Origin: Klebsiella michiganensis
Lineage (GTDB): Bacteria > Pseudomonadota > Gammaproteobacteria > Enterobacterales > Enterobacteriaceae
Assembly: GCF_002925905.1 (NCBI RefSeq)
Contig: NZ_PRDB01000001.1
Coordinates: forward strand, 806,001 to 870,000
DNA length: 64,000 bases
Direction: 5' to 3'
Position numbers and translations under genes: made by a program. Of the stretch, positions 1-15,516 are shown piece after piece. A model generated the notes under the pieces. It was not told where the DNA came from. It searched no databases and saw only the letters and a list, made by a program, of their open reading frames with translations. Positions within the stretch are counted from its first letter, which is position 1. Every line of letters starts with the position of its first letter.

Positions 1-194
1 GCCGGCGTATCTGACCACGCCGGAAAGGCTTTGCGCGCCGCGGCAACGGCATCCAGCACTTCTTGCTCGGTGCAGCAGGGGGCCTGAGCCATGACTTCCC
101 CGGTACTTGGGTTATAGACGTCCATATAGCGTTCGGTCTGCGATACGCGCCATTGACCATCAACGAAATATTTCAGCCTTGGTACAGTAGTCAT
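1..194 (-). CDS. CoA-acylating methylmalonate-semialdehyde dehydrogenase, N-terminal part (cut by window edge)
   Basis: The 5' end of an aldehyde dehydrogenase gene runs off the left edge; 64 codons are visible. The N-terminus (MTTVPRLKYFVDGQW) and the NPSTGEVMAQ stretch are typical of the MmsA/IolA family, which oxidises malonate- or methylmalonate-semialdehyde to acetyl- or propionyl-CoA with NAD and CoA. The ATG at 194 follows a GGAG ribosome site 6 bases upstream. It is a paralogue of the full-length IolA at 46331-47836, not a copy: the N-termini differ at most positions. An IolR-like palindrome lies about 270 bases upstream (460-475), so a link to the inositol regulon is possible. The catalytic Cys is outside the window, so activity cannot be judged. 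Confidence 0.85.
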   Translation of the reverse strand, partial: MTTVPRLKYFVDGQWRVSQTERYMDVYNPSTGEVMAQAPCCTEQEVLDAVAAARKAFPAWSDTP

Positions 195-830
195 ATTTTT
201 CTCCATGATGATAGCTGTCGACTCTCTAAAATCTGGCTCCGGTCGGCGGCAAATAACCGACCGCCGGGTTAGCCCCTCTCGTGAAAAGTGAATTCCTGCT
301 TCTTGCCGGACGATGGCCTCCGCTGGGCGATTCACCTGCGGCGGTGCGGATGATTTTGTCGACTTTCTGCTGAGGAAAGCCTGCAGACGCCAGGTTTTAA
401 TGAACAGAACTCACTGGCCAAAAATACGCGCACGCACCGTTTCGGTTCTTGTACTTTAATGAAATTTATTTTTCATTATAATAATGTATGAAATAACAAA
501 ACCGTTTTGAGAGGTGGATCAAAGATAAGCAAATTGCTGATAAAGTCAGCGCCCTAAAGGCAGGGTTATATTGTTTTATTTAATAAAGTTAACAGGTTGT
601 GTTGATGGCATTGGCGTTGATGGCGAGGGGAGATTGCCAGCCGGATTGCAATGGAACGGCTTTCTTGTGAAATAAAAGTTAAATATAAGCGCGAAATCGA
701 ATGAAAATGAAAAATTAAAACCGATTTAAATGCAGGGAAAATTCGAATTGACCATTGTCCATGGCATTGCGTTCGAGGGAGTGGGTCGCCCGGATCGGGC
801 AACAGCCGTAATCCGGGGAGTCATACAGAA
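195..830. other. 636-bp intergenic region
   Basis: This stretch lies between the dehydrogenase gene and yjgA, both on the minus strand. It should hold the dehydrogenase promoter, and it carries the TGAAAT-TTAT-TTTTCA palindrome at 460-475 inside an AT-rich block (roughly 455-500). Short open frames here (for example 566-802 minus) show no recognisable protein. I see no RNA gene and no clear terminator for yjgA. Confidence 0.6.
460..475. promoter_or_regulatory. putative IolR/RpiR-type operator
   Basis: TGAAAT-TTAT-TTTTCA is an inverted repeat with a 4-base spacer and one mismatch. The same layout occurs upstream of iolA (46231-46246) and iolC (52349-52364). It lies upstream of the left-edge semialdehyde dehydrogenase gene. 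Its role as an IolR site is inferred from recurrence alone. Confidence 0.4.
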
Positions 831-1382
831 TTAGCCTTCGCTTTCGGCCAGTTCGCGCAGGTACTGGAAGATAAGACGCGCGGACTTCGGCGGCTTGTTG
901 CCTTCTTTCTCTTTTTTGGCGTTGCGGATCAGCGAACGCAACTGCTGACGATCGGCATCTGGCCACAGGTTCAGCACTTCAGCCACGGCATCATCACCAT
1001 TATCAATCAGACGATCGCGGATCTGCTCAAGCTTATGGAACAGCGCAACCTGCTGGTTGTGGCGGTTCTTCAGCTTGTCCAGCGCCTGACGAATCGGCTC
1101 GACGTCGCGGCTGCGCAGCATTTTACCAATCAGCTGCATCTGGCGGCGGCGGCCTTCTTTCTTGATACGCTGGGCGAGTTCAATCGCGTCGCGCAGGTCG
1201 GTATCCAGCGGGATTTTATCGAGCGCGTTTTTACCCAGCTCGACCATTTCCGCGCCAAGACGCTTCAGTTCTTCGGCGTCACGCTTAATTTCACTTTTAC
1301 TGACCCAGATAATTTCATCGTCTTCATCTTCGACGTCATCACCAGGGACGTCGTCGAGCCAGTCTTCGGGCTGCTTTGTCAT
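831..1382 (-). CDS. darP: YjgA / DarP, ribosome-associated 50S maturation factor
   Basis: 183 aa, the usual length. It is almost identical to the E. coli YjgA protein: acidic N-terminus ([16 protein letters not shown]), then a helical, highly charged body ending in LRELAESEG. YjgA/DarP binds late 50S ribosomal precursors and helps 23S rRNA maturation near the peptidyl transferase centre (established for E. coli). I start it at the ATG at 1382, not the upstream in-frame codon at 1430, because this matches the conserved N-terminus. It is divergent from pmbA, with 94 bases between the starts, as in E. coli. Confidence 0.95.
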
Positions 1383-1476
1383 CTCAGGCTCCTTAAAAAA
1401 GAGACTAATGTTACCAGTTAAGGCGCGCACTGAAAAACGGTTCTCTGTTAGACTTCAGTTAACTCCTTCTTACATT

Positions 1477-2829
1477 ATGGCATTAGCGATGAAAGTCATC
1501 TCTCAAGTTGCACAACAGCGTAAGACGCTGGAAGAGGCCGTGACCACGGCGCTGGAACTGGCGGCAGGCAAATCCGACGGCGCGGAAGTCTCCGTCAGTA
1601 AAACTACCGGTATCGGCGTGAGCACCCGCTACGGCGAAGTGGAGAACGTAGAATTCAACAGCGATGGTGCTCTCGGCATCACCGTTTATCACCAGAATCG
1701 CAAAGGCAGCGCGTCTTCGACCGATCTCAGCCCGCAGGCTATTGCCCGCACGGTGCAGGCGGCGCTGGATATCGCCCGCTATACCTCGCCGGACCCGTGC
1801 GCGGGCGTGGCGGATAAAGAACTGCTGGCTTTTGAAGCCCCGGATCTTGACCTGTTCCATCCGGCGGAAGTTTCCCCGGATGAAGCCATCGAGCTGGCCT
1901 CCCGCGCTGAACAGGCGGCGCTAAAAGCCGATAAACGCATCAGCAATACCGAAGGCGGCAGCTTTAACAGCCACTACGGCATTAAAGTGTTCGGCAACAG
2001 CCACGGCATGCTGCAGAGCTACTGCTCTACCCGCCACTCGCTCTCCAGCTGCGTGATTGCCGAAGAGAATGGCGATATGGAGCGCGATTACGCTTACACC
2101 ATCGGACGGGCGATAGACGACCTGCAATCGCCGGAGTGGGTTGGCGAAGAGTGCGCCCGCCGCACCCTGTCGCGCCTGGCCCCGCGTAAGCTATCGACGA
2201 TGAAAGCGCCGGTGATTTTCGCCAACGAAGTCGCTACCGGTCTGTTTGGCCATCTGGTCGGGGCGATCGCCGGCGGTTCGGTTTACCGTAAATCCACCTT
2301 CCTGCTTGATGCGCTGGGTAGCCAGATCCTGCCGGACTGGCTGACCATTGAAGAGCATCCTCACCTGCTGAAAGGTCTGGCTTCGACGCCGTTTGATAGC
2401 GAAGGCGTCCGTACGGAACGCCGGGATATCATTAAAGACGGCGTACTGACCCAGTGGCTGCTGACCAACTACTCGGCGCGCAAGCTGGGATTGAAGAGCA
2501 CTGGCCACGCGGGCGGTATTCATAACTGGCGTATTAACGGCCGCGGCCTGAGTTTTGCAAAGTTGCTTAAAGAGATGGGGACCGGTCTTGTCGTCACGGA
2601 ACTGATGGGGCAGGGTGTAAGCGGCGTCACCGGCGACTACTCACGCGGCGCATCCGGCTTCTGGGTAGAAAACGGCGAAATTCAGTATCCGGTCAGTGAG
2701 ATAACCATTGCAGGAAATCTGAAAGATATGTGGCGTAATATCGTGACCATCGGCGACGATATCGAAACGCGCAGCAACATTCAGTGCGGTTCCGTACTGC
2801 TGCCGGAGATGAAGATCGCCGGGCAATAA
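1477..2829 (+). CDS. pmbA: PmbA/TldE, metalloprotease subunit
   Basis: 450 aa, beginning [11 protein letters not shown], as in E. coli PmbA (TldE). With TldD it forms the heterodimeric TldD/E protease that processes modified peptides such as microcin B17 and degrades the CcdA antitoxin; in TldD/E the zinc site is in TldD. The family stretches around [17 protein letters not shown] and the C-terminal [16 protein letters not shown] are intact. The open frame continues upstream to 1162, but that part overlaps yjgA on the other strand and is not conserved; the ATG at 1477 fits the family (1489 is a possible alternative). cybC follows after 36 bases. Confidence 0.95.
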
Positions 2830-2865
2830 CACTTGTGTGCTTAATAATAAAAAAGGAAGTGAGCA

Positions 2866-3252
2866 ATGCGTAAAAAACTGTTAGCGATGCTGGCCGTATC
2901 GGCTTTTGCGCTTGGTTCGGCATCGGCTTTCGCCGATCTGGGCGAAGATATGGATACCCTTGCTGAGAACCTGCAAGTGGTGCAGAAAACTTCAGATGCC
3001 GGCGAGCTGAAAGCGGCGCTGAATAAGATGCGCACAGCGGCGGCTGACGCTCAGAAAGAGACGCCGCCGAAGCTGGAAGGTAAAGCGGCGGACAGCGCGG
3101 AAATGAAAGACTATCGTCACGGTTTCGATGTGCTGATCGGCCAGATTGACGGCGCGCTGAAGCTGGCTGATGAAGGCAAAGTCAAAGAAGCCCAGGCCGC
3201 AGCGGAAGAGTTTAAAACCACCCGCAATACATACCATAAGAAGTACCGTTAA
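2866..3252 (+). CDS. cybC: soluble cytochrome b562
   Basis: 128 aa. A Sec signal peptide of about 22 residues ends in SASAFA and precedes the mature start ADLGEDM. The mature protein is a periplasmic four-helix bundle binding one non-covalent heme b. The axial ligands of the family are visible: Met7 of the mature chain (ADLGEDM) and a His close to the C-terminus (NTYHKKYR). No CXXCH motif is present, consistent with b-type heme. The gene is intact. It sits 36 bases after pmbA and has a good GGAAG ribosome site. Its physiological electron partner is not known. Confidence 0.95.
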
Positions 3253-3260
3253 TTTCTCTT

Positions 3261-3292
3261 TGTGGGGAGGCGTCAGCCGATGCCTCCCACAT
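3261..3292 (+). terminator. hairpin after cybC
   Basis: An inverted repeat (GGGAGGC / GCCTCCC, extended by TGTG / CACA) lies 9 bases after the cybC stop. The T-run is weak, so termination is likely but not certain. Confidence 0.6.
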
Positions 3293-3374
3293 TCTGTTAA
3301 TTCAAAACTCCATCACCGTCACATTTTTCGCTTTTCCTGCATGCCGGTTTTCGCCACCGTGACACCGAGGATCT

Positions 3375-3390
3375 TGTGATGTTCATCACG
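3375..3390. promoter_or_regulatory. putative CRP site 1
   Basis: TGTGA-TGTTCA-TCACG matches the CRP consensus TGTGA-N6-TCACA with one mismatch. It is the most distal of three such sites upstream of the SFCGS/DUF4310 operon. Confidence 0.6.
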
Positions 3391-3402
3391 AGAATTGGTT
3401 GA

Positions 3403-3418
3403 GGTGAATACATTCACA
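3403..3418. promoter_or_regulatory. putative CRP site 2
   Basis: GGTGA-ATACAT-TCACA matches TGTGA-N6-TCACA with one mismatch. Its centre lies 28 bp downstream of site 1. Confidence 0.55.
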
Positions 3419-3425
3419 ATAACTA

Positions 3426-3441
3426 TGTGAAATAGATCACG
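3426..3441. promoter_or_regulatory. putative CRP site 3
   Basis: TGTGA-AATAGA-TCACG has one mismatch to the CRP consensus. Its centre lies 23 bp downstream of site 2. Three near-consensus sites in 67 bp suggest strong catabolite control. Confidence 0.6.
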
Positions 3442-3454
3442 CCTGCCTTCTTCC

Positions 3455-3474
3455 TTTCCACTTCGAAGTGGAAA
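3455..3474. promoter_or_regulatory. perfect 20-bp palindrome, putative operator of the cluster regulator
   Basis: TTTCCACTTC / GAAGTGGAAA is a perfect inverted repeat without spacer. It lies between CRP site 3 and the first gene of the operon (GTG at 3544). It is not followed by a T-run, so it is unlikely to be a terminator. The HTH-PRD regulator at 10290-12200 is the obvious candidate to bind it; this is inference. Confidence 0.5.
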
Positions 3475-3543
3475 ACAACTCGCTACAAACTCTTTGCCCC
3501 CGGCATTAGTGTTATCCCCAGAGACATCAACGGGGTAATTCAA

Positions 3544-3882
3544 GTGAATAACGGAGCGGTAACACACGTCCCAGAGGAGCAGGCCACGCTAACCGAACAG
3601 CTGGCCGACAAGATGCTGCAGCAGGTTTTCGCACTATTAAGCCGCCGCAACATCGTCCCCAACGACGTTCAGGAGCAAATGCTGACTTCCCACGTTCGGG
3701 CGATGGCCCATCGGTCAATCAGCGGCGAGCCGCTGCCGGAAGTGGATGCCAGCCTGTTCGAAGAGATCTCAGAAGATTCAATGATGCTGGCCCGCGAAGT
3801 GGTCGCGCAGTTCGGCAATCTGCCAGATGAAGAAGCCTGGCTGCTGTCCGTCCACTTCGAAGTCGCGAAAGATAACCTGTAA
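3544..3882 (+). CDS. stand-alone PRD domain protein
   Basis: 112 aa with a single PTS-regulation domain (PRD) and no DNA-binding part. The two PRD histidine positions are visible as His50 (TSHVRAMAHR) and His104 (LLSVHFE). In BglG/LicR/MtlR regulators such histidines are phosphorylated by PTS proteins; here the domain is free-standing, as in the small YhfY-type proteins. It starts at GTG 3544 with a GGGG stretch upstream; the next Met is at codon 25, inside the predicted domain. It is the first gene of the operon, 11 bases before the SFCGS gene. It may sense or relay PTS phosphorylation state to the transporter or regulator; the function is unproven. Confidence 0.8.
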   Translation: MNNGAVTHVPEEQATLTEQLADKMLQQVFALLSRRNIVPNDVQEQMLTSHVRAMAHRSISGEPLPEVDASLFEEISEDSMMLAREVVAQFGNLPDEEAWLLSVHFEVAKDNL

Positions 3883-3893
3883 GGAGCACACAA

Positions 3894-4256
3894 ATGGAAC
3901 AAATCACCGTTGTTATTGGCGATCGCCTGGGTAAAGGACAAAAAGTTGCCGCAGGTGCGGAAAAAGCCGGCGCTCGCGCCGTGGTCGTGCCGGGCGTTGC
4001 CGCGGATATGAAGCTGGGCGACATGATGAAGGCGGAAAACGCCACCTTCGGTATCTCTTTCTGCGGCAGCGGCGGCGCAGGGGCTATCACCGCGCAGAAT
4101 AAGCACGGCTACAAGGCGAAATATGGCATGCGTTCCGTTGATGAAGGCGTCACCGCGATCAACGAAGGCTACAACGTACTGGGCTTCGGCTTTATGGATA
4201 AAGAAGAGCTGGGTGAACGCCTGGTTGAGGCCTGGAAGAAGAAGTACAGCGCGTGA
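3894..4256 (+). CDS. glycine-rich SFCGS family protein (EF_0830/AHA_3911 type)
   Basis: 120 aa, no signal peptide and no membrane segment. The hallmark loop GISFCGSGGAGA places Cys57 in a Gly-rich turn, preceded by a Rossmann-like start (ITVVIGDRLGKGQ). The family is known only as a small, rare protein encoded with DUF4312, DUF4311 and DUF4310; the function is unknown. It resembles YhfU in overall design and in its position beside a YhfT-type membrane protein. A Cys in a glycine loop recalls PTS EIIB phosphocysteine sites, but this is speculation. It has a strong AAGGAG ribosome site, and its stop overlaps the next start by 4 bases, so translation is coupled. Confidence 0.85.
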   Translation: MEQITVVIGDRLGKGQKVAAGAEKAGARAVVVPGVAADMKLGDMMKAENATFGISFCGSGGAGAITAQNKHGYKAKYGMRSVDEGVTAINEGYNVLGFGFMDKEELGERLVEAWKKKYSA

Positions 4257-4558
4257 GCATGAAAGAGCAATTCACCACCACGGTGAGCGTTACCGGCAAA
4301 GGCGAGAGCAAAACGCGCGCTTTTGCCGATGCCCTGAACCATGTCCAGGCGGCGGTGATGAAAACGTCGCCGCACATCTTACTGCGTATTGAACCACAGG
4401 ACGTGGAGGTTGTTCATGCGCGTGAAGCGGTACGGAAAGAGGCCTTTTTATTCTTCTTTTTGCGCCGTGAGCGACGAACCTACAGCGTGGAGCTGAAGGT
4501 CACCGTCACCGTGACCGCCATTAATCTCGATAAAGTGGATTTCGTCACGCAAACCTGA
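4253..4558 (+). CDS. DUF4312 family protein
   Basis: 101 aa, predicted cytoplasmic, with alternating beta strands (EQFTTTVSVTGKGESK, YSVELKVTVTVTAIN) and a basic FFFLRRERR patch. It is the constant partner of the SFCGS protein and the two membrane proteins (EF_0831 type). The function is unknown. The start is taken at GTG 4253, overlapping the upstream stop (GTGA); an ATG two codons later (4259) is equally possible. The gap to the DUF4311 gene is 21 bases. Confidence 0.8.
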   Translation: MSMKEQFTTTVSVTGKGESKTRAFADALNHVQAAVMKTSPHILLRIEPQDVEVVHAREAVRKEAFLFFFLRRERRTYSVELKVTVTVTAINLDKVDFVTQT

Positions 4559-4579
4559 TTTTCACCAAAGGGTCAGACT

Positions 4580-5356
4580 ATGTTCCTGATAATTTTAATA
4601 AAATCGCTCATCATCGGCGGCCTGGTTGGCGTCGGCGTAGGCGCCGGAGCGGCACGCATGTTTCATGCGCCCACCACGCAGGGGATGGGGGCGTTTCGTA
4701 CCTTGGGCGAGCTGAATTCATGTGAAGGCGATCCGGCTTCCCACTTCTCATTTGGCCTGGGCTTCTTCTTCAACGCCTGGGCCTCTTCCGTCGCGGCAGG
4801 CTCCTTCACTCAGGACGTTGACCACCGCATTATCCCCAACTGGGGGGCGGCAGCGTTGATGATTAAAAACCGCAACGTCGGCGAGACGCTGCACGATCCG
4901 AAAAAGATGGCCATCGCCTGCGGCATTATCGGCATGATCGTGGTCGCTTTCCTCAACCTCACCGCCTCTTCTGTACCGGAAGCGCTGCAGGTGACGGCGG
5001 TTAAAGTGCTGGTTCCGGCGGCAAATCTGCTGGTGAATACGGTGATGCCGGTCATCTTCTGGCTGGCGGCGATTGATGCCGGTAAAAAATCGGGCTTCTG
5101 GGCGACGATTTTCGGCGGCGCGGCGCAGCTGATTATGGGTAACGCCGTTCCGGGCCTGGTGCTGGGCATCCTGATCGGGAAAGGCGTTGAAGAGAGCGGC
5201 TGGCACCGCGTCACCAAGGTGATGATGGTGGCGATCGTCGCGCTGTTCGTTCTGAGCGGCTTCTTCCGCGGTTTCGACATGAAGATGATTGAATCCTTCC
5301 ATCTGACCGTGCCGAACTGGCTGGAACTGATCCACAACTCGCTCAGCGGTAAATAA
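4580..5356 (+). CDS. DUF4311 membrane protein, putative transporter subunit
   Basis: 258 aa with about six hydrophobic segments, starting with MFLIILIKSLIIGGLVGVGV at the N-terminus. Glycine-rich helices alternate with loops such as DVDHRIIPNWGA and IDAGKKSG. It belongs to the EF_0832 type family, found only beside DUF4310, DUF4312 and SFCGS proteins, and shows some resemblance in layout to YhfT. It has no ATP-binding, MFS or recognisable PTS EIIC signature that I can see. With DUF4310 it most likely forms a two-subunit inner-membrane carrier. Transport is inferred from topology and from its place in a catabolic operon. Confidence 0.8.
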   Translation: MFLIILIKSLIIGGLVGVGVGAGAARMFHAPTTQGMGAFRTLGELNSCEGDPASHFSFGLGFFFNAWASSVAAGSFTQDVDHRIIPNWGAAALMIKNRNVGETLHDPKKMAIACGIIGMIVVAFLNLTASSVPEALQVTAVKVLVPAANLLVNTVMPVIFWLAAIDAGKKSGFWATIFGGAAQLIMGNAVPGLVLGILIGKGVEESGWHRVTKVMMVAIVALFVLSGFFRGFDMKMIESFHLTVPNWLELIHNSLSGK

Positions 5357-5368
5357 CAGGAGCCTCTC

Positions 5369-6013
5369 ATGGAACAAAATAAAGGTTTTTGGTATGCCGA
5401 CTGGTCGTTCCCGATCTTTGTTGGCCTGCTCTCCGCCGGCGTCTTTGCCGGGACGCATATGTACTACCTCTACGGCATCGGCGCGTTTAACGAAGTCGCC
5501 TTCGTGGCGATGCTGAAAGCGGGAATTGATACAGGGGCCTACGGCGCGGTAGCGGCGTTCGGCGCTAGCTTCTTGTTCGCGCGTATTATCGAAGGCTCGC
5601 TGGTGGGGATTCTGGATATCGGCGGGGCGATTCAGACCGGCGTCGGCTTAGGCGTTCCGGCGCTGCTGCTCGGCGCGGGCTTTGTTTTCCCGGTCGCCAA
5701 CTTTGCCGCCTCGCTGGTCACCGGACTGGTGCTGGGCCTCGCGATTGGCTACATCATCATCCTGGCGCGTAAATTCACCATCAACCAGAGCGATTCCACC
5801 TACGGTGCGGACGTCATGATGGGGGCCGGTAACGCCTCAGGCCGTTTCCTCGGACCGTTGATTATCCTCAGCGCCATGACCGCTTCTATTCCTATCGGCA
5901 TCGGTTCCCTGGCGGGCGCGCTGCTGTTCTACATCTGGCAGAAGCCTATCACCGGCGGCGCGATCCTTGGCGCCATGCTTCTTGGGTCAATCTTCCCGGT
6001 GGCGATTAGTTAA
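5369..6013 (+). CDS. DUF4310 membrane protein, putative transporter subunit
   Basis: 214 aa with about six hydrophobic stretches and very high Gly/Ala content (GILDIGGAIQTGVGLGVPAL, GSLAGALLFYIWQKP). It is the EF_0833-type partner of DUF4311; the genes are 12 bases apart with an AGGAG ribosome site. No known catalytic motif is present. Together with DUF4311 and the two small soluble proteins it makes a four-protein unit of unknown mechanism. A strong GC hairpin follows (6019-6038), separating the transporter genes from the enzyme genes. Confidence 0.8.
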   Translation: MEQNKGFWYADWSFPIFVGLLSAGVFAGTHMYYLYGIGAFNEVAFVAMLKAGIDTGAYGAVAAFGASFLFARIIEGSLVGILDIGGAIQTGVGLGVPALLLGAGFVFPVANFAASLVTGLVLGLAIGYIIILARKFTINQSDSTYGADVMMGAGNASGRFLGPLIILSAMTASIPIGIGSLAGALLFYIWQKPITGGAILGAMLLGSIFPVAIS

Positions 6014-6018
6014 GTCCT

Positions 6019-6038
6019 GCGGGCGCCTCGGCGCCCGC
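6019..6038 (+). other. intercistronic GC hairpin
   Basis: GCGGGCGCC-TC-GGCGCCCGC is a perfect 9-bp stem with a 2-base gap, between the DUF4310 and amidohydrolase genes. No T-run follows, so it is more likely an mRNA stability or processing element than a full terminator. Confidence 0.6.
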
Positions 6039-6055
6039 GTTAACAGGAGAGAGAC

Positions 6056-7189
6056 ATGTTTGATTTACTCCTGCGCCGTGCGCGCCTCGTCGACGATACC
6101 CTGACCGATATCGCCATCCGGGACGGTAAAATCGCGGCGCTTGGCGAGATTAGCGCGCCTGCGCGCAAAACCCTTGAGCTGGACGGTCGCTATTACGTTA
6201 GCGCAGGCTGGATTGACTCTCACGTTCACTGCTATCCGAACTCGCCGATTTACCATGATGAGCCGGACAGCGTGGGGGTTGCTACCGGCGTGACCACCGT
6301 GATTGACGCGGGCAGCACCGGCGCGGACGACGTGGATGATTTCTACCAGCTGACCCGCAAAGCCGCGACCGAAGTTTACGCCCTGCTTAACATCTCCCGC
6401 GTCGGGCTGATTGCCCAGAATGAACTGGCCAATATGGCGAATATCGACGCGGAGGCGGTGAAGCAGGCGGTCAACCGCTACCCGAACTTTATCGTCGGCC
6501 TGAAGGCGCGGATGAGCAGCAGCGTGGTGGGGGAAAACGGCATTACGCCGCTGGCGCGCGCAAAGGCGATTCAGCAGGAAAACGGCGGCCTGCCGCTGAT
6601 GGTGCATATCGGCAACAATCCGCCCGACCTGGATGAGATCGCCGACCTGCTGACCTCCGGCGACATCATTACCCACTGCTACAACGGTAAACCCAATCGT
6701 ATCCTGACGCCGTCCGGCGAGCTGAAAAGCTCGATTTCTCGCGCGCTACAGCGCGGCGTGCGCCTTGATATCGGCCACGGCACCGCCAGCTTCAGCTTCG
6801 AGGTGGCGCGGCGGGCGATTGCTATGGGCATTCTGCCGCACACCATCAGCTCCGATATTTACTGCCGCAACCGTATCGACGGCCCGGTGCGATCGCTGGC
6901 GCTGGTGATGTCGAAATTCCTCGCCATTGGCATGTCACTGCCGCAGGTCATTGACTGCGTGACCGCCAACGCCGCTGAAGGCCTGCGTCTTAGCCACAAA
7001 GGGCGGCTGGAAGTGGGTTACGACGCCGACCTGACGCTGTTTACCCTCGCGCAGACGCCAACGGTGCTGGTGGATGCGGAAAAAGAGAGCCTTCAGACCG
7101 ACAAGATTCTGCTGCCGCTTGCCGCCGTTCGCGCGGGCAAGGGCTATCTGACCGAACAAGGGAGCGCGGAAAATGCCTTCGATTTTTGA
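6056..7189 (+). CDS. amidohydrolase/deacetylase family metallohydrolase (EF_0837 type)
   Basis: 377 aa, amidohydrolase superfamily TIM barrel. Visible metal-site elements: the HxH pair in DSHVHC, a likely carboxylated Lys in GLKARMS, His in MVHIGN and THCYNG, and the catalytic Asp in SSDIYC. Relatives include the structurally solved E. faecalis EF_0837 and Agrobacterium Atu3266, for which hydrolysis of an O-acetylated 2-hydroxy acid was reported; the natural substrate is unclear. In this operon, directly before a PLP ammonia-lyase and overlapping its start by 17 bases, removing an acyl group from an amino- or hydroxy-acid intermediate is a reasonable job. The protein is cytoplasmic (no signal peptide). 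Confidence 0.85.
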   Translation: MFDLLLRRARLVDDTLTDIAIRDGKIAALGEISAPARKTLELDGRYYVSAGWIDSHVHCYPNSPIYHDEPDSVGVATGVTTVIDAGSTGADDVDDFYQLTRKAATEVYALLNISRVGLIAQNELANMANIDAEAVKQAVNRYPNFIVGLKARMSSSVVGENGITPLARAKAIQQENGGLPLMVHIGNNPPDLDEIADLLTSGDIITHCYNGKPNRILTPSGELKSSISRALQRGVRLDIGHGTASFSFEVARRAIAMGILPHTISSDIYCRNRIDGPVRSLALVMSKFLAIGMSLPQVIDCVTANAAEGLRLSHKGRLEVGYDADLTLFTLAQTPTVLVDAEKESLQTDKILLPLAAVRAGKGYLTEQGSAENAFDF

Positions 7190-8291
7190 GAAATATGATT
7201 TAAAACAGGTGATTAATACCTCCGGTCGTATGACCATTCTTGGCGTCTCCACGCCGCGGCCGGAAGTGGTGGACGCCGCGATGGCGGGGATGAACCAGTA
7301 CTTCGAGATGAAAGATCTGGTCAATAAAACCGGCGCGTATATTGCGAAGCTGCTGGACGTGGAAGGGGCGACCGTCGTCTCCTGCGCCTCGGCGGGCATC
7401 GCCCAGTCGGTGGCGGCGGTGCTGGTAAAAGACAGCGACTGGCTGCTGGAAAACCTGCACGTGACGCCGATTGAAAACAACGAAATCGTGCTGCCTAAGG
7501 GTCATAACGTCAATTTTGGCGCGCCGGTGGGCACCATGGTGGCGCTGGGCGGCGGCAGGCTGGTGGAAGCGGGCTACGCCAATGAATGTTCCGCCGGGCA
7601 GCTGGCGGCGGCCATTACCCCGCGCACCGCGGCCATTCTGTACATCAAATCCCACCACTGCGTGCAGAAAAGCATGCTCAACGTGGCGCAGGCGGCAGCG
7701 GTGGCGCAGAGCCATAATCTGCCGCTGATTGTCGACGCGGCGGCGGAGGAAGACCTCCAGGCCTACTATCGCGCCGGCGCGGATCTGGTGATTTATAGCG
7801 GCGCGAAGGCGATCGAAGGGCCGACCAGCGGGCTGGTGATTGGCAAAACCCAATATGTTGAGTGGGTTAAACGTCAGTCGAACGGCATTGGCCGGGCGAT
7901 GAAGGTGGGCAAAGAGGGGATCCTCGGCCTGACCTGCGCGATTGAGCACTATCTGACGGCGCGCAAAGAGAGCGGTGAAGAGATGGTGGCGAAGATGACG
8001 CCGTTTATTCAGCAGCTCAATACGCTCGATGGCGTCACCGCGCGCGTGGTCTGGGACAGCGCCGGCCGCGATATCGCGCGGGCGGAGATCAAGTTTGATG
8101 AAGCGGTGACCGGCGTCGATACCGGCGATCTGGTCAATGCGCTGAAGCAGGGCGAATACGCCATCTACTTCCGTGGCTATAAAGCAAATGAAGGCATTAT
8201 TGAAGCCGATGTCCGCAGCGTGAACGCGCAGCAGCTGGAGATTGTCTCCCGTCGCATCGCAGAAGTTTTGAACAAGGAGAAAAACGCATGA
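7173..8291 (+). CDS. DgaE-type PLP-dependent ammonia-lyase
   Basis: 372 aa, fold type I PLP enzyme of the SelA/DgaE group. Lys212 in YSGAKAIEGPTSG is the expected Schiff-base residue, and Asp188 in LIVDAAAEED would contact the pyridine nitrogen. DgaE of Salmonella converts D-glucosaminate-6-phosphate to 2-keto-3-deoxygluconate-6-phosphate plus ammonia (established); this protein is a family member in a different operon without the mannose-type PTS, so the exact substrate may differ. Its start lies inside the amidohydrolase gene, and its stop overlaps the aldolase ATG (ATGA), pointing to tight coupling of the three enzymes. Confidence 0.85.
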   Translation: MPSIFEKYDLKQVINTSGRMTILGVSTPRPEVVDAAMAGMNQYFEMKDLVNKTGAYIAKLLDVEGATVVSCASAGIAQSVAAVLVKDSDWLLENLHVTPIENNEIVLPKGHNVNFGAPVGTMVALGGGRLVEAGYANECSAGQLAAAITPRTAAILYIKSHHCVQKSMLNVAQAAAVAQSHNLPLIVDAAAEEDLQAYYRAGADLVIYSGAKAIEGPTSGLVIGKTQYVEWVKRQSNGIGRAMKVGKEGILGLTCAIEHYLTARKESGEEMVAKMTPFIQQLNTLDGVTARVVWDSAGRDIARAEIKFDEAVTGVDTGDLVNALKQGEYAIYFRGYKANEGIIEADVRSVNAQQLEIVSRRIAEVLNKEKNA

Positions 8292-9028
8292 AACTGACCC
8301 CTAATTTTTATCGTGACCGCGTCTGCCTGAACGTGCTGGCGGGGAGCAAAGAGAACGCCAGCGAGATTTATGAGGCGGCGGAAGGTCATGTACTGGTGGG
8401 CGTGCTCTCCAAAAATTACCCGGACGTCGCCAGCGCGGTTGCCGATATGCGTGAATACGCGCAGCGGATTGATAACGCGCTCTCCGTGGGATTGGGCGCG
8501 GGCGACCCGAACCAGTCGGCGATGGTCAGCGAAATTTCGCGTCAGGTGCAGCCGCAGCACGTCAACCAGGTATTTACCGGCGTGGCGACCAGCCGCGCGC
8601 TGCTGGGGCAGAACGAAACCGTGGTTAACGGCCTGGTGTCGCCAACCGGTACGCCGGGAATGGTGAAGATCTCCACCGGTCCGCTCAGCAGCGGCGCGCC
8701 GGACGGCATCGTACCGCTGGAAACCGCGATTGCGCTGCTGAAAGATATGGGCGGCAGTTCGATTAAATATTTCCCGATGGGCGGGCTGAAGCATCGCGAC
8801 GAGTTTATTGCGGTGGCCGAGGCCTGCGCCCGTCATGATTTCTGGCTGGAGCCCACCGGCGGGATCGATCTGGAAAACTACGGCGAGATCCTGCAGATCG
8901 CGCTGGACGCAGGGGTAAGTAAAATTATCCCGCATATCTACAGTTCGATTATTGATAAAGCCAGCGGTCACACCCGCCCGGCGGACGTGCGTCAGCTGCT
9001 TTCGATCACCAAACAGTTAGTAAAATAG
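8288..9028 (+). CDS. DgaF-type KDGP aldolase
   Basis: 246 aa, class I aldolase related to DgaF. The IKYFPMGG motif carries the likely Schiff-base Lys, and the GTPGMVKIS and PTGGIDLENYGE motifs are conserved. The expected reaction is 2-keto-3-deoxy-6-phosphogluconate to pyruvate and glyceraldehyde-3-phosphate, taking the product of the upstream ammonia-lyase. It overlaps that gene by 4 bases. Since both enzymes act on phosphorylated compounds, the pathway needs a phosphorylation step, yet no kinase gene is present in the cluster. Confidence 0.85.
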   Translation: MKLTPNFYRDRVCLNVLAGSKENASEIYEAAEGHVLVGVLSKNYPDVASAVADMREYAQRIDNALSVGLGAGDPNQSAMVSEISRQVQPQHVNQVFTGVATSRALLGQNETVVNGLVSPTGTPGMVKISTGPLSSGAPDGIVPLETAIALLKDMGGSSIKYFPMGGLKHRDEFIAVAEACARHDFWLEPTGGIDLENYGEILQIALDAGVSKIIPHIYSSIIDKASGHTRPADVRQLLSITKQLVK

Positions 9029-9036
9029 CGCCGATT

Positions 9037-9085
9037 ATCCCTCACCCGGCCCTCTCCCCAACGGGGAGAGGGTTAGGGCGAAGGG
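9037..9085. repeat. intergenic palindromic element
   Basis: The core CCCTCTCCCC-AAC-GGGGAGAGGG (9050-9072) is a perfect 10-bp stem flanked by CCCTCACCC and GGGCGAAGGG. Related palindromes occur at 13086-13127 and 59383-59411, so this is a dispersed repeat. It may cap the upstream mRNA or weaken read-through to the lactonase gene. Confidence 0.65.
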
Positions 9086-9115
9086 AAACCGCCACCGAAC
9101 CATCAAGGAGTCACC

Positions 9116-10267
9116 ATGCCAACCGCTCGTCACCTGCTTGTTGCTTCACTCTCTCTGCTCGCCGCCGGCGCCGCTGCGCAAACCCAGTACGCCTGGGTCG
9201 GCACCTACAACCCCAATGGCGAAGGGCTGTATCGCTTTACCGTTGATAGCCAGACCGGGGCGCTGCGCGATAAAACGCTGGTCGGGACGCTGCCTGACCT
9301 GGCCCAGCTTACCGTCTCGGCGGATGGCAAAACCCTGTACGGCGCCAGCGAAGTGGAAAAGGGAGTGGTGCAGGCGTGGCGCATCGGCAGCAACGGTGAA
9401 CTGAGCGAGCTGAATCAGGTCGCTTCCGGCGGCGCCGGGCCGGTTTATCTCTCCCTGACCCCCGATGGACGTCATCTGCTGGTGGCAAACTACGTCAGCG
9501 GCAGTATCGCCGTGCTGCCGGTGAAAGAAGATGGTAACCTGGGCGAGGCGGTGGATGTGCATCAGGATCAAGGGCCTGCGGGCGCGGAACGCCCGGCGGC
9601 AGCCGTCGAAGGCAGTTTTGCCATTAGCGATCATAACGGCCCCCACGCCCATATGATCGCCGCCGATCCCAGCGGTAAATTCGTTTACTCCACCGATCTC
9701 GGCCTGGACCGGATCTATCAGTACCGGCTGGATAGCGCCACCGGGAAGCTGACGCCGAACGATCCGCCGTTTATCGCGGCCTCATCTCCCGGCGCCGGAC
9801 CGCGCCACTTTGTGTTTACGCCGCAGGGCGACGGACTATGGTTGATTAACGAAGAGGCGTCGACGCTCACTTTTTATCATCTCAATAAGCAAAGCGGCCT
9901 GCTGCGCGAGGGGAAAACGGTCTCGGCGCTGCCTGCAGAGTATAAGGGCACCAGCTTTGCCGCCGGCCTGGTCCTGAGCCGCGACGGCAAGCAGCTGTAC
10001 GTCGCCAACCGACTGCATAACAGTATCGCCCACTTTACGGTGCTGGCTGACGGCAGCCTGAGCCACCAGGACGATATCTGGACCCGCGGCGACTATCCGC
10101 GCACGCTGACGCTGGACAGTCAGGGGCAGTGGCTGTACGTCATGAACCAGCGTAGCGACAACATCACCCGCTTTCGCGTCGCGCCGAAGGATGGCAGGCT
10201 GACGTTCTCTCCGGACTACACCCCGGTTGGCAGCCCGTCGCAGATGGTGATATCCGCTCAACCCTGA
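9116..10267 (+). CDS. exported lactonase (Pgl-type seven-bladed beta-propeller)
   Basis: 383 aa of the lactonase family (6-phosphogluconolactonase YbhE/Pgl and muconate-cycloisomerase relatives). An N-terminal signal peptide with a hydrophobic stretch (LLVASLSLLAAGAAA) and probable cleavage before QTQYAWVG predicts a periplasmic location, unlike cytoplasmic Pgl. Repeated blade motifs such as SVSADGKTLYGA, LTPDGRHLLVANY and LSRDGKQLYVANR are visible. It lies 87 bases after the aldolase and before the regulator gene. A periplasmic lactonase at the end of a sugar-acid operon suggests that an aldonolactone is opened before uptake; the substrate is unknown. Confidence 0.85.
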   Translation: MPTARHLLVASLSLLAAGAAAQTQYAWVGTYNPNGEGLYRFTVDSQTGALRDKTLVGTLPDLAQLTVSADGKTLYGASEVEKGVVQAWRIGSNGELSELNQVASGGAGPVYLSLTPDGRHLLVANYVSGSIAVLPVKEDGNLGEAVDVHQDQGPAGAERPAAAVEGSFAISDHNGPHAHMIAADPSGKFVYSTDLGLDRIYQYRLDSATGKLTPNDPPFIAASSPGAGPRHFVFTPQGDGLWLINEEASTLTFYHLNKQSGLLREGKTVSALPAEYKGTSFAAGLVLSRDGKQLYVANRLHNSIAHFTVLADGSLSHQDDIWTRGDYPRTLTLDSQGQWLYVMNQRSDNITRFRVAPKDGRLTFSPDYTPVGSPSQMVISAQP

Positions 10268-10289
10268 GCCGTAAGAAAAAGGAACTGAC

Positions 10290-12200
10290 ATGCGATTTCC
10301 CCATCAACGTTTAGCGCAGCTGTTTACTCTGTTGCAAAACGAAACGCTGCCGCAGGAGGAGCTGGCGCAGCGGCTGTCGGTTTCTACTCGCACGGTACGC
10401 GCGGACATCACCGCGCTGAACGCGCTGCTGCTGCACTACGGCGCGCAGTTTATCCTCACCCGCGGCAGCGGCTATCAGCTGGTGATTCACGATCCGACGC
10501 GCTATCAGACGCTGGAAGAGAGCGCGCCGAAAGCGCAGCATATCCCGCGAACCGCGGCGGATCGCATCCACTTTTTGCTGGTGCGCTTTTTAACTTCCGC
10601 GTTTTCTATCAAGCTGGAGGATCTGGCCGATGCGTGGTTCGTCAGCCGCGCCACCTTACAGGGCGATATGGTTGACGTACGCGAGCGTTTTCAGCGTTAT
10701 CAGCTCACCCTCGAGACCCGGCCGCGCCACGGCATGAAGCTGTTCGGCAGCGAGGTCTCCATTCGCGCCTGCCTGACCGATCTGCTGTGGGAGCTGAGCC
10801 AGCAGGGGCCGCTGAACCCGCTTATTGGCGAAGAGGCGTTTGACGCCAGCGTACCGACGCTGCTGGCCGGCGTGCTGCAGGAGACGTTAACCCGCCATCA
10901 CGTGCGGCTGACGGACGCGGGGGAGCGCTTTATCTGCCTGTACGTCGCGGTTGCCGTGCGCCGCGTGAGCGAAGGGTATCCGCTGGCGGATTTTAGCGCC
11001 GAGGATGTGGGGCAAAACGTACGCGACGCCGCACGCGAGCTGGCAAACACGATGCAGCAGCTGGCGGGCAAACTGCTTGCTCCGGCGGAAGAGGAGTGGC
11101 TGTGCGTCCACCTTGCCGCCCGCCAGGTGCAGGACGTCGATCCGGGCACCATCAGCGCCGACGACGACGAAGCGCTGGTGAACTACATCCTGCGCTATAT
11201 CAATCAGCAATATAACTACAATCTGCTGGACGATGCCCAGCTGCGTGCGGATTTACTGACCCATATTAAGACCATGATCACCCGCGTGCGCTACCAGATA
11301 ATGATCCCCAACCCGCTTCTGGAAAATATCAAACAGCATTACCCCATGGCGTGGGACATGACCCTGGCGGCGGTATCGAGCTGGGGGAAATATACTCCCT
11401 ACGCCATCAGCGAAAACGAGATCGGCTTTCTGGTGCTGCATATCGGCGTCGGGCTGGAGCGCCATTACAATATCGGCTATCAGCGTCAGCCGCAGGTGCT
11501 GCTGGTCTGCGATACCAGCAACGCGATGGTGCGGATGATTGAAGCCATTCTTCAGCGTAAGTATCCGCAGCTGGAAATTGCCGCCACCCTTTCGCAACGC
11601 GAATATGAACAGCGGGAAGAGATCGCGGAAGATTTTGTCATTTCCACCGTGCGCATCAGTGAGAAAGAGAAGCCGGTGGTCACCATTGCGCCGTTTCCTA
11701 CCGACTACCAGCTCGACCAAATCGGCAAGCTGGTGCTGGTGGACCGCACGCGTCCCTGGATGCTGAATAAGTATTTTGATGAGGCCCACTTCCAGGTGAT
11801 AGATACCCCGATGGATCAGCAGGCGCTGTTTGCCGCGCTGTGCCAGCAGCTGCAGCAGGAGGGGTTTGTCGGAGCGGAGTTTCATGGGTCGGTGGTGGAG
11901 CGTGAGGCTATCGTCAGCACCATGCTCGGCGACGGGATCGCGCTGCCTCACGCCCTCGGCCTGCTGGCGAAAAAGACCGTGGTCTATACGGTCATCGCCC
12001 CGCACGGTATCGCATGGGGCGATGAAACCGCGCATATCATCTTCCTGCTCGCCATCAGCAAAAGCGAGTATGAAGAGGCGATGGCGATCTACGATATTTT
12101 CGTCACCTTCCTGCGTGAACGGGCAATGGCCCGCCTTGCCGCCACCCGCAGTTTTGCTGAGTTTAAAGCGGTGGCCATGGAGTGCGTCAGCCGGTTTTGA
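10290..12200 (+). CDS. BglG/MtlR-type transcriptional regulator (HTH-PRD-PRD-EIIB-EIIA)
   Basis: 636 aa. Order: HTH (roughly 5-60, with QEELAQRLSVSTRTVRADI), a second winged-helix region (~85-170), PRD1 (~190-290), PRD2 (~300-400, with LLTHIKTMITRVRYQ and FLVLHIGVGLERHYN), an EIIB-like region with a Cys (VLLVCDTSNAM) and a C-terminal EIIA of the fructose/mannitol type with its His in GDGIALPHALG. It lacks the sigma-54 AAA domain of DgaR, so it should act like MtlR or LicR as a PTS-controlled DNA-binding activator. In PRD1 the usual first His position reads Tyr (CLYVAVAVRR), so control may rest on the other sites. It starts 22 bases after the lactonase gene. Likely target: the 3375-3474 region. 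Confidence 0.85.
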   Translation: MRFPHQRLAQLFTLLQNETLPQEELAQRLSVSTRTVRADITALNALLLHYGAQFILTRGSGYQLVIHDPTRYQTLEESAPKAQHIPRTAADRIHFLLVRFLTSAFSIKLEDLADAWFVSRATLQGDMVDVRERFQRYQLTLETRPRHGMKLFGSEVSIRACLTDLLWELSQQGPLNPLIGEEAFDASVPTLLAGVLQETLTRHHVRLTDAGERFICLYVAVAVRRVSEGYPLADFSAEDVGQNVRDAARELANTMQQLAGKLLAPAEEEWLCVHLAARQVQDVDPGTISADDDEALVNYILRYINQQYNYNLLDDAQLRADLLTHIKTMITRVRYQIMIPNPLLENIKQHYPMAWDMTLAAVSSWGKYTPYAISENEIGFLVLHIGVGLERHYNIGYQRQPQVLLVCDTSNAMVRMIEAILQRKYPQLEIAATLSQREYEQREEIAEDFVISTVRISEKEKPVVTIAPFPTDYQLDQIGKLVLVDRTRPWMLNKYFDEAHFQVIDTPMDQQALFAALCQQLQQEGFVGAEFHGSVVEREAIVSTMLGDGIALPHALGLLAKKTVVYTVIAPHGIAWGDETAHIIFLLAISKSEYEEAMAIYDIFVTFLRERAMARLAATRSFAEFKAVAMECVSRF

Positions 12201-12353
12201 GATGCGCAGCCAGAGTTCGAGCCGCGCGCGCTTCGGGATACCGACGGGTATATCAGGTTCGGGATGAGGTGGTGAGGGTTTATGTTATTGCTGTGGGAAA
12301 ACGAGAGAAATTAGCCGTCTATCGGAACGTCCATAAACGGCTGTAGCGGGAGG

Positions 12354-12818
12354 CTATCTCAGGTGATGTACAACCTGGTTGCTGCTGCCGCGCCAGATCA
12401 GCGCCGGGTCTTTTAAGTCCTGCACAAATTTGCCATCAACCAGCACGTTGATGAGATCCACCACCTGCATCTGCGCGGCGTTAAGTTCGTCCAGCTTGTA
12501 GCCGGTCCACACCCAGATATCTTTGCCGGGGCACTCGGCGCGAACGCGCTGCACCAGCTTAAGGATCTCCGGGACGTTCTGCGGGTGCAGCGGGTCGCCG
12601 CCGGAAAGCGTGATCCCCTGGCGCTTAACGCGGGTATCGTTGAGGTCAGCAATAATGCGGTCGGCTATCTCGGCGGTGAACGGCATGCCGGAGTTTAGCC
12701 GCCAGGTGCTCTTGTTATAGCAGCCGGGGCACTCGTGAACGCAGCCGGAAACGAACAGGGTGCAGCGAGTGCCCGGACCGTTAACGATATCTACCGGGTA
12801 GTACTGATGGTAATTCAT
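12354..12818 (-). CDS. nrdG: anaerobic ribonucleotide reductase activating protein NrdG
   Basis: 154 aa radical-SAM activase. The 4Fe-4S cluster motif CVHECPGC gives Cys26, Cys30 and Cys33, and the SAM-binding SGGDP follows. It uses SAM and reduced flavodoxin to form the glycyl radical on NrdD. I start at the ATG at 12818 (MNYHQYYPVDIV, as in E. coli); an upstream in-frame codon at 12842 lies in repeat DNA. It is downstream of nrdD on the same strand but separated by 320 bases of repeats, more than in E. coli. Confidence 0.97.
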   Translation of the reverse strand: MNYHQYYPVDIVNGPGTRCTLFVSGCVHECPGCYNKSTWRLNSGMPFTAEIADRIIADLNDTRVKRQGITLSGGDPLHPQNVPEILKLVQRVRAECPGKDIWVWTGYKLDELNAAQMQVVDLINVLVDGKFVQDLKDPALIWRGSSNQVVHHLR

Positions 12819-12840
12819 TTTTCGCTTCTCAATTAACGCC

Positions 12841-12936
12841 ATAGCCGCGTTGGCTGCGCTCGCTCACCCCAGTCACGTACTTAATGTACGCTCCCGGGGA
12901 TTCCCTCGTTTGCCGCCTTGCTCTGACGCGAATTGC
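12841..12936. repeat. ERIC element (incomplete)
   Basis: The sequence matches ERIC on the reverse strand: GCTCACCCCAGTCACGTACT, then ATGTACGCTCCCGGGGATTC, close to the ERIC2 and ERIC1R consensus primers, followed by TTTGCCGCCTTGC. The terminal TATACTC inverted repeats are missing. It lies between nrdD and nrdG. Confidence 0.8.
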
Positions 12937-12969
12937 TTTGCGAAAACGGAGGGGCTTTGCATTTGTAAA

Positions 12970-13066
12970 GGGAACGGCTCCCGGCGTCGCTGCGCTCGGC
13001 CGGGCTACGAAGAGCCGCATACGCGGTTGTAGCCCGGATAAGGCGCTTTGCGCCGCGATCCGGGAA
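12970..13066. repeat. REP/BIME pair
   Basis: Two facing REP-like units: GGCTCCCGGCGTCGCTGCGC-TCGGCCGGGCTACGA and TAGCCCGGATAAGGCGCTTTG-CGCCGCGATCCGGGAAC. These are typical of enterobacterial BIMEs in transcribed intergenic DNA. They may protect the 3' end of nrdD mRNA and lower nrdG expression. Confidence 0.75.
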
Positions 13067-13085
13067 CGGCTCGAGTGGCCGGTCG

Positions 13086-13127
13086 GTCCCCTCTCCCGGC
13101 AGGGGAGAGGATTAGGGGAGGGGCTAA
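13086..13127. repeat. intergenic palindromic element
   Basis: CCCCTCTCCC-GGCA-GGGGAGAGG followed by ATTAGGGGAGGGG has the same design as the element at 9037-9085. It lies just after the nrdD stop and may act as a 3' mRNA stabiliser. Confidence 0.6.
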
Positions 13128-13138
13128 ACCACCCGGAA

Positions 13139-15277: not shown

Positions 15278-15306
15278 GATCACTCCATAATTTTTTACAG
15301 AACAGG

Positions 15307-15315
15307 TTATCCACA
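15307..15315 (+). promoter_or_regulatory. DnaA box
   Basis: TTATCCACA is a perfect match to the DnaA box consensus. It lies 30 bases upstream of the nrdD start and is 78 bases from a second identical box. Confidence 0.5.
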
Positions 15316-15384
15316 GAGGCGGAAGGTCAACCGAAGTCCCGGGGCGCTGTAGCTGCCGCCGTTTCCCTCCGATCCCGGCCCTTT

Positions 15385-15393
15385 TTATCCACA
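15385..15393 (+). promoter_or_regulatory. DnaA box
   Basis: A second perfect TTATCCACA in the same orientation in the nrdD leader. DnaA control is established for nrdAB in E. coli; for nrdDG it is only suggested by these sites. Confidence 0.5.
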
Positions 15394-15442
15394 TCCCATC
15401 ACCGCCTGAGTACGATGGGTGTGGTGACATAATAGACTATTA

Positions 15443-15458
15443 ATACAATATGTGGGGC
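15443..15458. promoter_or_regulatory. nrdR box: NrdR box 1
   Basis: ATACAATATGTGGGGC fits the NrdR consensus (acaCwAtATaTwGtgt) at most core positions. Its start is 31 bp, three helical turns, from box 2, the usual spacing for NrdR box pairs. Confidence 0.65.
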
Positions 15459-15473
15459 CGGGACGCATTTTAA

Positions 15474-15489: not shown

Positions 15490-15516
15490 TTTGCATCAAA
15501 GATGTTTGCAATTTTA

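Follow-up and report, generated by a model that had tools for sequence, protein, structure and literature searches.

This study concerns a 64,000-nucleotide stretch of the genome of Klebsiella michiganensis (contig NZ_PRDB01000001.1, positions 806,001 to 870,000; here named the window), in which an operon combines enzymes of sugar-acid breakdown with the protein families SFCGS, DUF4312, DUF4311, and DUF4310 (here named the quartet). We propose that the products of this operon import and break down an N-acylated 2-amino-2-deoxy sugar acid, or the corresponding lactone, via an unrecognized type of permease coupled to the phosphoenolpyruvate (PEP)-dependent phosphotransferase system (PTS). We put this forward tentatively, giving it slightly less than an even chance, with N-acetyl-D-glucosaminate as the simplest candidate substrate. 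The enzymatic half of the pathway, an amino-sugar-acid route ending in a 2-keto-3-deoxy-6-phosphogluconate (KDPG)-type aldolase, appears well supported by sequence comparison.

Organization and conservation of the operon

Eight open reading frames (ORFs), all on the forward strand, lie between positions 3544 and 9028 of the window, just as an initial annotation of the sequence had placed them. The tight packing described there, with overlaps of 4 and 17 bases, was confirmed, since neighboring genes share 4 bases (4253 to 4256), 17 bases (7173 to 7189), and again 4 bases (8288 to 8291). Judged against NCBIfam curated and Pfam gathering cutoffs, all eight proteins score above the cutoffs of the NCBIfam models for the EF_0829-EF_0839 cluster. 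The first gene encodes a stand-alone PRD-domain protein of the EF_0829 family (3544 to 3882; TIGR03582, 137.6 bits versus a cutoff of 69) and is followed by those of the quartet: the glycine-rich SFCGS protein of 120 amino acids (3894 to 4256; TIGR03577, 219 versus 141 bits; PF14272), the small putative subunit DUF4312 of 101 amino acids (4253 to 4558; TIGR03578, 136 versus 90 bits), and the putative membrane subunits DUF4311 (258 amino acids; 4580 to 5356; TIGR03580, 521 versus 301 bits) and DUF4310 (214 amino acids; 5369 to 6013; TIGR03579, 391 versus 215 bits). Three enzyme genes come next, for an amidohydrolase/deacetylase-family metallohydrolase of the EF_0837 type (6056 to 7189; TIGR03583, 576 versus 432 bits), a pyridoxal phosphate (PLP)-dependent ammonia lyase of the DgaE family (7173 to 8291; TIGR01437, 606.5 versus 385 bits), and a KDPG-type aldolase of the DgaF/DagF class (8288 to 9028; TIGR03581, 408 versus 222 bits).

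The unit extends past position 9028, where the initial annotation had closed it. Two further forward-strand genes belong to it, which brings its end to position 12200: a seven-bladed-propeller lactonase (9116 to 10267; PF10282, E = 1.3e-96) and a regulator in which Pfam recognizes HTH_11, an Mga HTH, PRDs, and a C-terminal EIIA_2 domain (10290 to 12200). An operator at 3455 to 3474, described below, is likewise part of the unit.

Conservation was examined in 85 loci picked by a DUF4311 match, of which 80 are the best 80 of one scan and nearly all from Enterobacteriaceae. Scored from tblastn matches at an expectation value (E) of 1e-5, partial matches included, the order PRD-SFCGS-DUF4312-DUF4311-DUF4310-amidohydrolase-DgaE-aldolase-regulator was found in 82 of the 85. 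The exceptions are Enterococcus faecalis, where the regulator comes first, Aeromonas caviae, where the amidohydrolase and DgaE are missing, and one locus (L091) on whose available stretch no regulator was matched. All four quartet families occur together in every one of the 85 loci, in agreement with the co-occurrence stated in the initial annotation. Across the 80 scan loci, median identity to the window is highest for DUF4311 (96.1%), followed by DUF4310 (93.9%), SFCGS (92.4%), and DUF4312 (87.0%); the three enzymes reach 83 to 91%, the regulator 77.4%, and the PRD protein 75.9%. The DUF4311 protein of the window is 100% identical in records of Klebsiella oxytoca, Klebsiella spallanzanii, and Klebsiella grimontii.

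Two loci of the sample deserve a remark. A contig labeled Chryseobacterium sp. (L109) carries an enterobacterial copy, with a PmbA 92% identical to that of the window, and is probably contaminated. In A. caviae KAM479 (L034, 10663 to 11274), the start of DUF4310 is fused to the end of the aldolase; the locus lacks the greater part of DUF4310 as well as the amidohydrolase and DgaE, an apparent internal deletion.

Conserved active sites point to a phosphorylated substrate

The initial annotation had assigned the lyase to the DgaE type, and this holds at the level of the family. The protein scores 379.5 against the cutoff of 600 of the glucosaminate-6-phosphate ammonia-lyase equivalog and is therefore not confirmed as a glucosaminate enzyme. 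We aligned it to 7lc0. For the Salmonella glucosaminate-6-phosphate ammonia-lyase, excerpts of the published study (PMC9529869) place the phosphate, by manual docking, near Arg301, Arg332, and Arg346 and the carboxylate near Arg226, and name His162, His163, and Lys-217 as active-site residues; Lys-217 of these excerpts was taken to be the aligned SGAK lysine, residue 213 of the chain. Arg301, Arg332, Arg346, and His163 align with Arg303, Arg334, Arg348, and His162 of the window protein, which, like its PLP lysine Lys212, are kept in 85/85 DgaE-type sequences, and His161 in 83/85, with alanine in both Bartonella sequences. These 85 are mostly close relatives from Enterobacteriaceae; the distant ones, from E. 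faecalis and Bartonella, keep all three phosphate-site arginines. Such conservation suggests that the substrate of the lyase probably carries a phosphate before deamination. At the position equivalent to Arg226, 80 of the 85 sequences have lysine and 5 have arginine.

The aldolase also passes the DagF equivalog model (NF047796, 392.4 versus 300) and has a solved relative in 3m0z (E = 2e-149). For the amidohydrolase, with the solved relatives 8wzy and 2ics, His56, His58, His184, His207, and His241 are present in 107/107 sequences. Enzymes of the related group cog3964 are reportedly active on acetyl-(R)-mandelate and weakly on N-acetyl-D-serine, by analogy to which we infer that the amidohydrolase may remove an N-acyl group from a D-configured α-amino acid. 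The lactonase, found in 49 of the 85 loci, is accessory, and its N terminus looks, by eye, like a signal peptide.

The same genome contains a genuine dga operon (L140) with the order DagR-IIA-IIB-IIC-IID-DgaE-DgaF and mannose-type PTS subunits (IIA, 141 amino acids; IIB, 161; IID, 286), in which both DgaE (709.7 versus 600) and DgaF (351.7 versus 300) pass their cutoffs. Since two operons for one compound would be redundant, a different compound is likelier for the window operon, probably an acylated form, a lactone, or an epimer, and glucosaminate itself is probably not its intended substrate. As a separate observation, the IIC gene of the dga operon (L140, 9195 to 9965, reverse strand; C10:12000-27000 of the same genome) matches EII-Sor only beyond about model position 65, its N-terminal portion reads as unrelated sequence, and the gene may be frame-disrupted or misassembled.

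The initial annotation had proposed that the quartet transports an (acylated) amino-sugar acid, which is then deacylated, deaminated, and cleaved to pyruvate and glyceraldehyde-3-phosphate. The amino-sugar-acid route to a KDPG-type aldolase gains from the DagF score and from the arginines kept in 85/85 sequences, while transport by the quartet, the identity of the substrate, and the deacylation step are not established by these data. The probable phosphorylation ahead of the lyase step, the signs of PTS coupling, and the genuine dga operon in the genome were absent from that annotation.

SFCGS resembles a shortened RpiB-like protein

SFCGS has one invariant cysteine, Cys57, located within a glycine-rich loop, and no conserved histidine. 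All 31 members tested match LacAB_rpiB (best E = 7e-4), with the window protein itself at 17.2 bits, under the gathering cutoff of 24.7 of PF02502 (RpiB/LacAB). Of five matches of the SFCGS profile in the PDB, two (E = 0.21 and 0.68) are to RpiB structures, and the other three, to a viral fusion glycoprotein, LsrB, and nitrogenase, look like chance. The CGSG loop with Cys57 aligns on CGTG of RpiB 2vvr and CGSG of 6fxl, an alignment that does not indicate loss of the RpiB loop threonine in SFCGS. Although each of these scores is weak, they agree with one another, and on this sequence evidence SFCGS resembles a shortened RpiB-like protein.

DUF4312 shows neither conserved histidines or cysteines nor hydrophobic segments by conservation and hydropathy analysis. 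By hydropathy, DUF4311 has about six hydrophobic segments and DUF4310 about seven. No EIIC or EIID match was obtained in Pfam scans of 30 DUF4310 and 5 DUF4311 members, and hhalign comparisons of the membrane pair with the EIID of the genome and an E. faecalis EIIC, each a single sequence, gave no match.

Weak DUF4311 matches outside the operon were dismissed. At E values up to 5, they occurred in 4 of 14 control genomes, none over the cutoff; the subthreshold match in the E. coli control genome was put down to chance, and YhfT gave no Pfam DUF4311 match. A further weak match in the window's own genome falls in a 275-amino-acid ORF, which we take to be a DjlA/J-domain protein.

Regulator histidines and a plasmid-borne HPr-EI fusion suggest PTS coupling

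The PTS classically regulates proteins through PRD and EIIA domains. His325, His384, and His554 of the regulator are present in 84/84 sequences of the EIIA-bearing type, a set outside which the E. faecalis type falls; His554 is the LPHA histidine of the C-terminal EIIA_2 domain. In the stand-alone PRD protein, His50 and His104 are present in 78/78 distinct sequences.

Plasmids of Bartonella sp. HY406 and HY761 carry the operon, from its PRD gene through its regulator gene, and directly behind the latter a gene for a 671-amino-acid fusion of HPr and enzyme I (EI), which comprises an HPr domain and three EI domains with intact HARP and GGATSHVA motifs. Between the two plasmids, this gene differs by 29 nucleotides and 2 amino acids, i.e., nearly synonymously, and the intact motifs together with this divergence indicate that the fusion appears to be under selection. 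Alphaproteobacteria are reported, in an excerpt of a published analysis, to lack PTS permeases (PMC2937029). No kinase was found among the annotations of the HY406 plasmid, a search that was limited to the plasmid and did not cover the chromosomes. Taken together, the invariant histidines and the Bartonella HPr-EI fusion speak for PTS coupling, at least of regulation.

On the Bartonella plasmids (L032, L033, and L135), the operon is combined with a set of type VI secretion genes, and the genes for replication and partition occur as an inverted duplicate. The A. caviae copy (L034, 11351 to 14944) adjoins an HPr-type gene on the opposite strand, possibly by chance; its neighbors presumably are rapZ/ptsN-like, with an rpoN-like gene near. 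We set this HPr gene aside as evidence for PTS coupling because of its strand and its place next to these ORFs.

A conserved palindrome precedes the operon

A perfect 20-bp palindrome, TTTCCACTTCGAAGTGGAAA, the probable operator, occupies positions 3455 to 3474; its first base lies 89 bases ahead of the start of the PRD gene. It precedes the PRD gene in all 80 scan loci (62 exact, 16 with one mismatch, 1 with two, and 1 with three), at a distance of 87 to 89 bases in 79 of them and 119 bases in one; one locus (L110) has an additional copy elsewhere. The palindrome is unique in the 6.19-Mb genome at up to three mismatches and did not occur in 100 shuffles of the window. A. caviae has a form with two mismatches, and both Bartonella plasmids have one with five, located 87 bases ahead of the position where PRD is annotated to start. 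At the E. faecalis locus, the nearest match has at least 7 mismatches. Since E. faecalis has neither a near palindrome nor an EIIA_2 match in its regulator, the operator and the EIIA-bearing regulator occur together in this small set, and from their joint conservation the regulator is predicted to bind the palindrome at 3455 to 3474.

Upstream of the operator, a possible CRP-like site, TGTGAAATAGATCACG, lies at 3426 to 3441 on the forward strand; a relaxed CRP-like pattern was present within 260 bases upstream of PRD in just 17 of 81 sequences. A sigma54-like site, sought with one pattern upstream of PRD, was found in 0/81 sequences, and a sigma70-type promoter scan gave none on the forward strand and fewer than in shuffles. 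Rfam had no match at the gathering threshold in window positions 1 to 20000.

Proposed mechanism and alternative explanations

In the proposed mechanism, a secreted lactonase, where present, would open an aldonolactone outside the inner membrane. DUF4311 and DUF4310 would form the membrane part of the permease, and SFCGS would be an EIIB-like phosphocarrier that hands phosphate from Cys57 to the entering sugar acid. The phosphate would pass from PEP via EI, HPr, and an EIIA, a role that the regulator might fill with its EIIA_2 domain, and DUF4312 would serve as a structural or coupling subunit. The amidohydrolase would then strip the acyl group and free the α-amine, after which the DgaE-type enzyme, with its conserved active site, would convert the 6-phosphate to KDPG by elimination of water and ammonia, and the aldolase, going by its family, would cleave this to pyruvate and glyceraldehyde-3-phosphate. 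The regulator would sense PTS phosphorylation and substrate via its PRD and EIIA histidines and act on the palindrome. Four points lead us to suggest that the quartet itself phosphorylates the sugar: a phosphorylated substrate is probably needed, the quartet sits in the slot that the PTS permease fills in the dga operon, the window operon contains no kinase gene, and SFCGS has an invariant cysteine.

Several observations weigh against this proposal. No quartet member matched a Pfam EIIA, EIIB, or EIIC family of the PTS, and, with DUF4312 lacking conserved histidines and cysteines, no EIIA is apparent within the quartet. Structure predictions for DUF4311 and DUF4310 were unusable, with mean predicted local distance difference test scores of 42.8 and 37.7 from 65 and 30 close homologues. 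The Bartonella HPr-EI fusion could serve solely to phosphorylate regulators, and the possible disruption of the dga IIC gene weakens the redundancy argument for the genome of the window. Lysine at the Arg226 position means that the substrate may differ from glucosaminate. In E. faecalis, the cluster encodes a sugar kinase (PfkB) and an EIIC of the ordinary lactose/cellobiose type, and its regulator gene, which stands first, encodes a protein without an EIIA_2 match. Because SFCGS retains the CG(S/T)G loop, its kinship to RpiB would fit an isomerase just as well.

The main rival is that the quartet is a non-phosphorylating transporter, that a cellular or cluster-encoded kinase phosphorylates the substrate, and that the PTS controls just the PRD and EIIA regulators, which we regard as somewhat doubtful. 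It would explain the PfkB kinase of E. faecalis, the missing match of the quartet to enzyme II families, and the place of the Bartonella fusion directly behind a regulator gene whose domains are of the kind that the PTS classically regulates. However, no kinase is among the genes of the window operon or the annotations of the HY406 plasmid (kinases elsewhere in the genomes were outside this search), and this rival leaves unexplained why the membrane pair is accompanied in 85/85 loci by two soluble proteins of small size, including one whose cysteine is invariant. An alternative role for SFCGS, with DUF4312, as an RpiB/LacAB-type isomerase or epimerase acting on an imported sugar phosphate, with only DUF4311 and DUF4310 transporting, would account for the LacAB_rpiB matches in 31/31 members, the two RpiB structures among five PDB matches, and the shared CGSG loop. 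We consider it unlikely, given that SFCGS has no conserved histidine, scores below the family cutoff, and at 120 amino acids is shorter than RpiB chains of 149 and 179, and that the proposed route needs no isomerase.

Regarding the membrane pair, DUF4311 matched DUF2232 weakly in 5/5 members tested (best E = 0.0034), a further point against a PTS permease, and ECF_trnsprt in 1/5 (E = 7.1); DUF2232 belongs to the same clan as ECF_trnsprt. That the pair is a distant member of this ECF/Gx transporter group is nevertheless very improbable in our view, as the DUF2232 match is below the cutoff and partial (window protein residues 141 to 237), and the operon has no gene for an ATPase or T component. 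The catabolic half, finally, might act on something other than an amino-sugar acid, e.g., the phosphate of another acylated (R)-α-amino or α-hydroxy acid. The missed DgaE equivalog cutoff, the lysine in 80/85 sequences, and the activities reported for the cog3964 relatives would agree with this, but a DagF-class aldolase together with the retained phosphate-site arginines, His162, and Lys212 fits a six-carbon phosphate yielding KDPG, and we think a different type of substrate improbable.

Distribution and novelty

In a sample of the phylum, DUF4311 was found in 12 of 398 genomes, all within the window's own family, and in a sample of the class, SFCGS was found solely in the window's own genome (1/369). 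None of 385 genomes of a class taken, from a GcrA match, to be alphaproteobacterial had DUF4311, which makes the Bartonella plasmids isolated cases. A plasmid collection of 72,556 records contained DUF4311 in 6. No viral contig encodes a relative, and megablast gave no match in 5,426 E. coli genomes; Bacillota were represented by one E. faecalis record.

As a cluster, EF_0829-EF_0839 is already known and listed in NCBIfam as hypothetical equivalogs, with no assigned function for the five families EF_0829 to EF_0833 or for SFCGS, DUF4310, DUF4311, and DUF4312 in Pfam. New here are the interpretation as a PTS, the operator, the resemblance of SFCGS, with its Cys57, to RpiB, and a possible kinship to yhf. 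A literature search returned no paper naming DUF4310, DUF4311, DUF4312, or SFCGS in the present sense; judged by title and start of the abstract, none among the matches listed calls the quartet a PTS, and those on N-acetylglucosaminate catabolism held nothing relevant. If the quartet is a phosphotransferase permease, it would constitute a new PTS class, and a lineage reported to lack PTS permeases would have acquired a complete plasmid-borne system. The predictions concerning Cys57, EI/HPr, and the operator are each open to simple experiments.

Comparison with known systems

The E. faecalis cluster EF_0829-EF_0839 contains all eight families in the same relative order as the window. There, the EIIC gene, one for a 99-amino-acid protein, and one for MupG, a 6-phospho-N-acetylmuramidase, are inserted, and the PfkB gene follows (L031; extra genes at 13548 to 16283 and 18501 to 20263); in this record, the aldolase reading frame is split. 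In excerpts of earlier work, a part in amino-sugar metabolism is suggested for EF0839 and EF2975, with transposon sequencing hinting at a fitness role (mBio 2020, PMC7701990), dgaEF is described as duplicated in E. faecalis (PMC7396535), and EF_0838 is listed among the proteins detected in biofilm only (PMC11135667).

With the dga operon for D-glucosaminate known from Salmonella and Klebsiella (regulator DgaR/DagR), the window operon shares the last two steps, a DgaE-family lyase and a DagF-class aldolase, as well as a four-gene transporter slot. This slot holds mannose-type IIA-IIB-IIC-IID in dga, whereas in the window it holds two small soluble and two membrane proteins, the quartet. The window operon additionally encodes the amidohydrolase and the lactonase, its regulator has HTH_11, Mga, PRD, and EIIA_2 domains whereas DagR resembles sigma54 activators, and its lyase fails the DgaE equivalog cutoff that the dga enzyme passes.

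Parallels to the upstream half are found in the uncharacterized yhfSTU-php-yhfWXYZ operon of E. coli, which encodes the PRD protein YhfY, the polytopic membrane protein YhfT, and YhfU (DUF2620), a small protein rich in glycine and with an invariant cysteine; Cetobacterium has these genes in the order PRD-DUF2620-YhfT, as in the window operon. Unlike the window operon, yhf has other enzymes, one membrane protein rather than two, and no DUF4312. We compared profiles by hhalign, using nine YhfU and nine YhfT sequences, and assessed significance by column shuffles, which destroy the hydrophobic pattern and are thus a lenient control for membrane proteins. The PRD protein matched YhfY with a probability of 95%, SFCGS matched YhfU with E = 0.006 (0/200 shuffles as high, 1/40 in an earlier set), and DUF4310 matched YhfT with E = 0.01 (1/200 and 0/40). 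DUF4311 alone gave no signal against YhfT (31/40 shuffles as high). Joined in genome order, DUF4311 and DUF4310 matched YhfT with E = 0.0018 (best stretch 77 columns, 0/200 shuffles), collinear at low confidence over 5 to 469 and 4 to 425, versus E = 0.014 in swapped order. Four other membrane proteins used as controls gave E values of at least 0.085, and other family pairs at least 0.095, except for DgaE-YhfS, two PLP enzymes (0.011). Moreover, 11 of 31 SFCGS members match DUF2620, and, of five DUF2620 members, two match SFCGS back and two match LacAB_rpiB.

These comparisons are suggestive of a link between the window operon and yhf. No functional paper on YhfT, YhfU, YhfS, or YhfX was found, judged by title and start of the abstract. 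We speculate that SFCGS-DUF4312-DUF4311-DUF4310 and YhfU-YhfT might represent two lineages within an undescribed class of PEP-dependent permeases for sugar acids, in which a shortened RpiB-fold phospho-cysteine protein takes the role of EIIB and which can move between phyla as a self-contained unit with its operator, its regulator, and, in Bartonella, an EI and an HPr of its own; in this full form, the idea is rather doubtful. If YhfU and YhfT do belong to such a class, part of the yhf operon of E. coli K-12 would gain a testable role.

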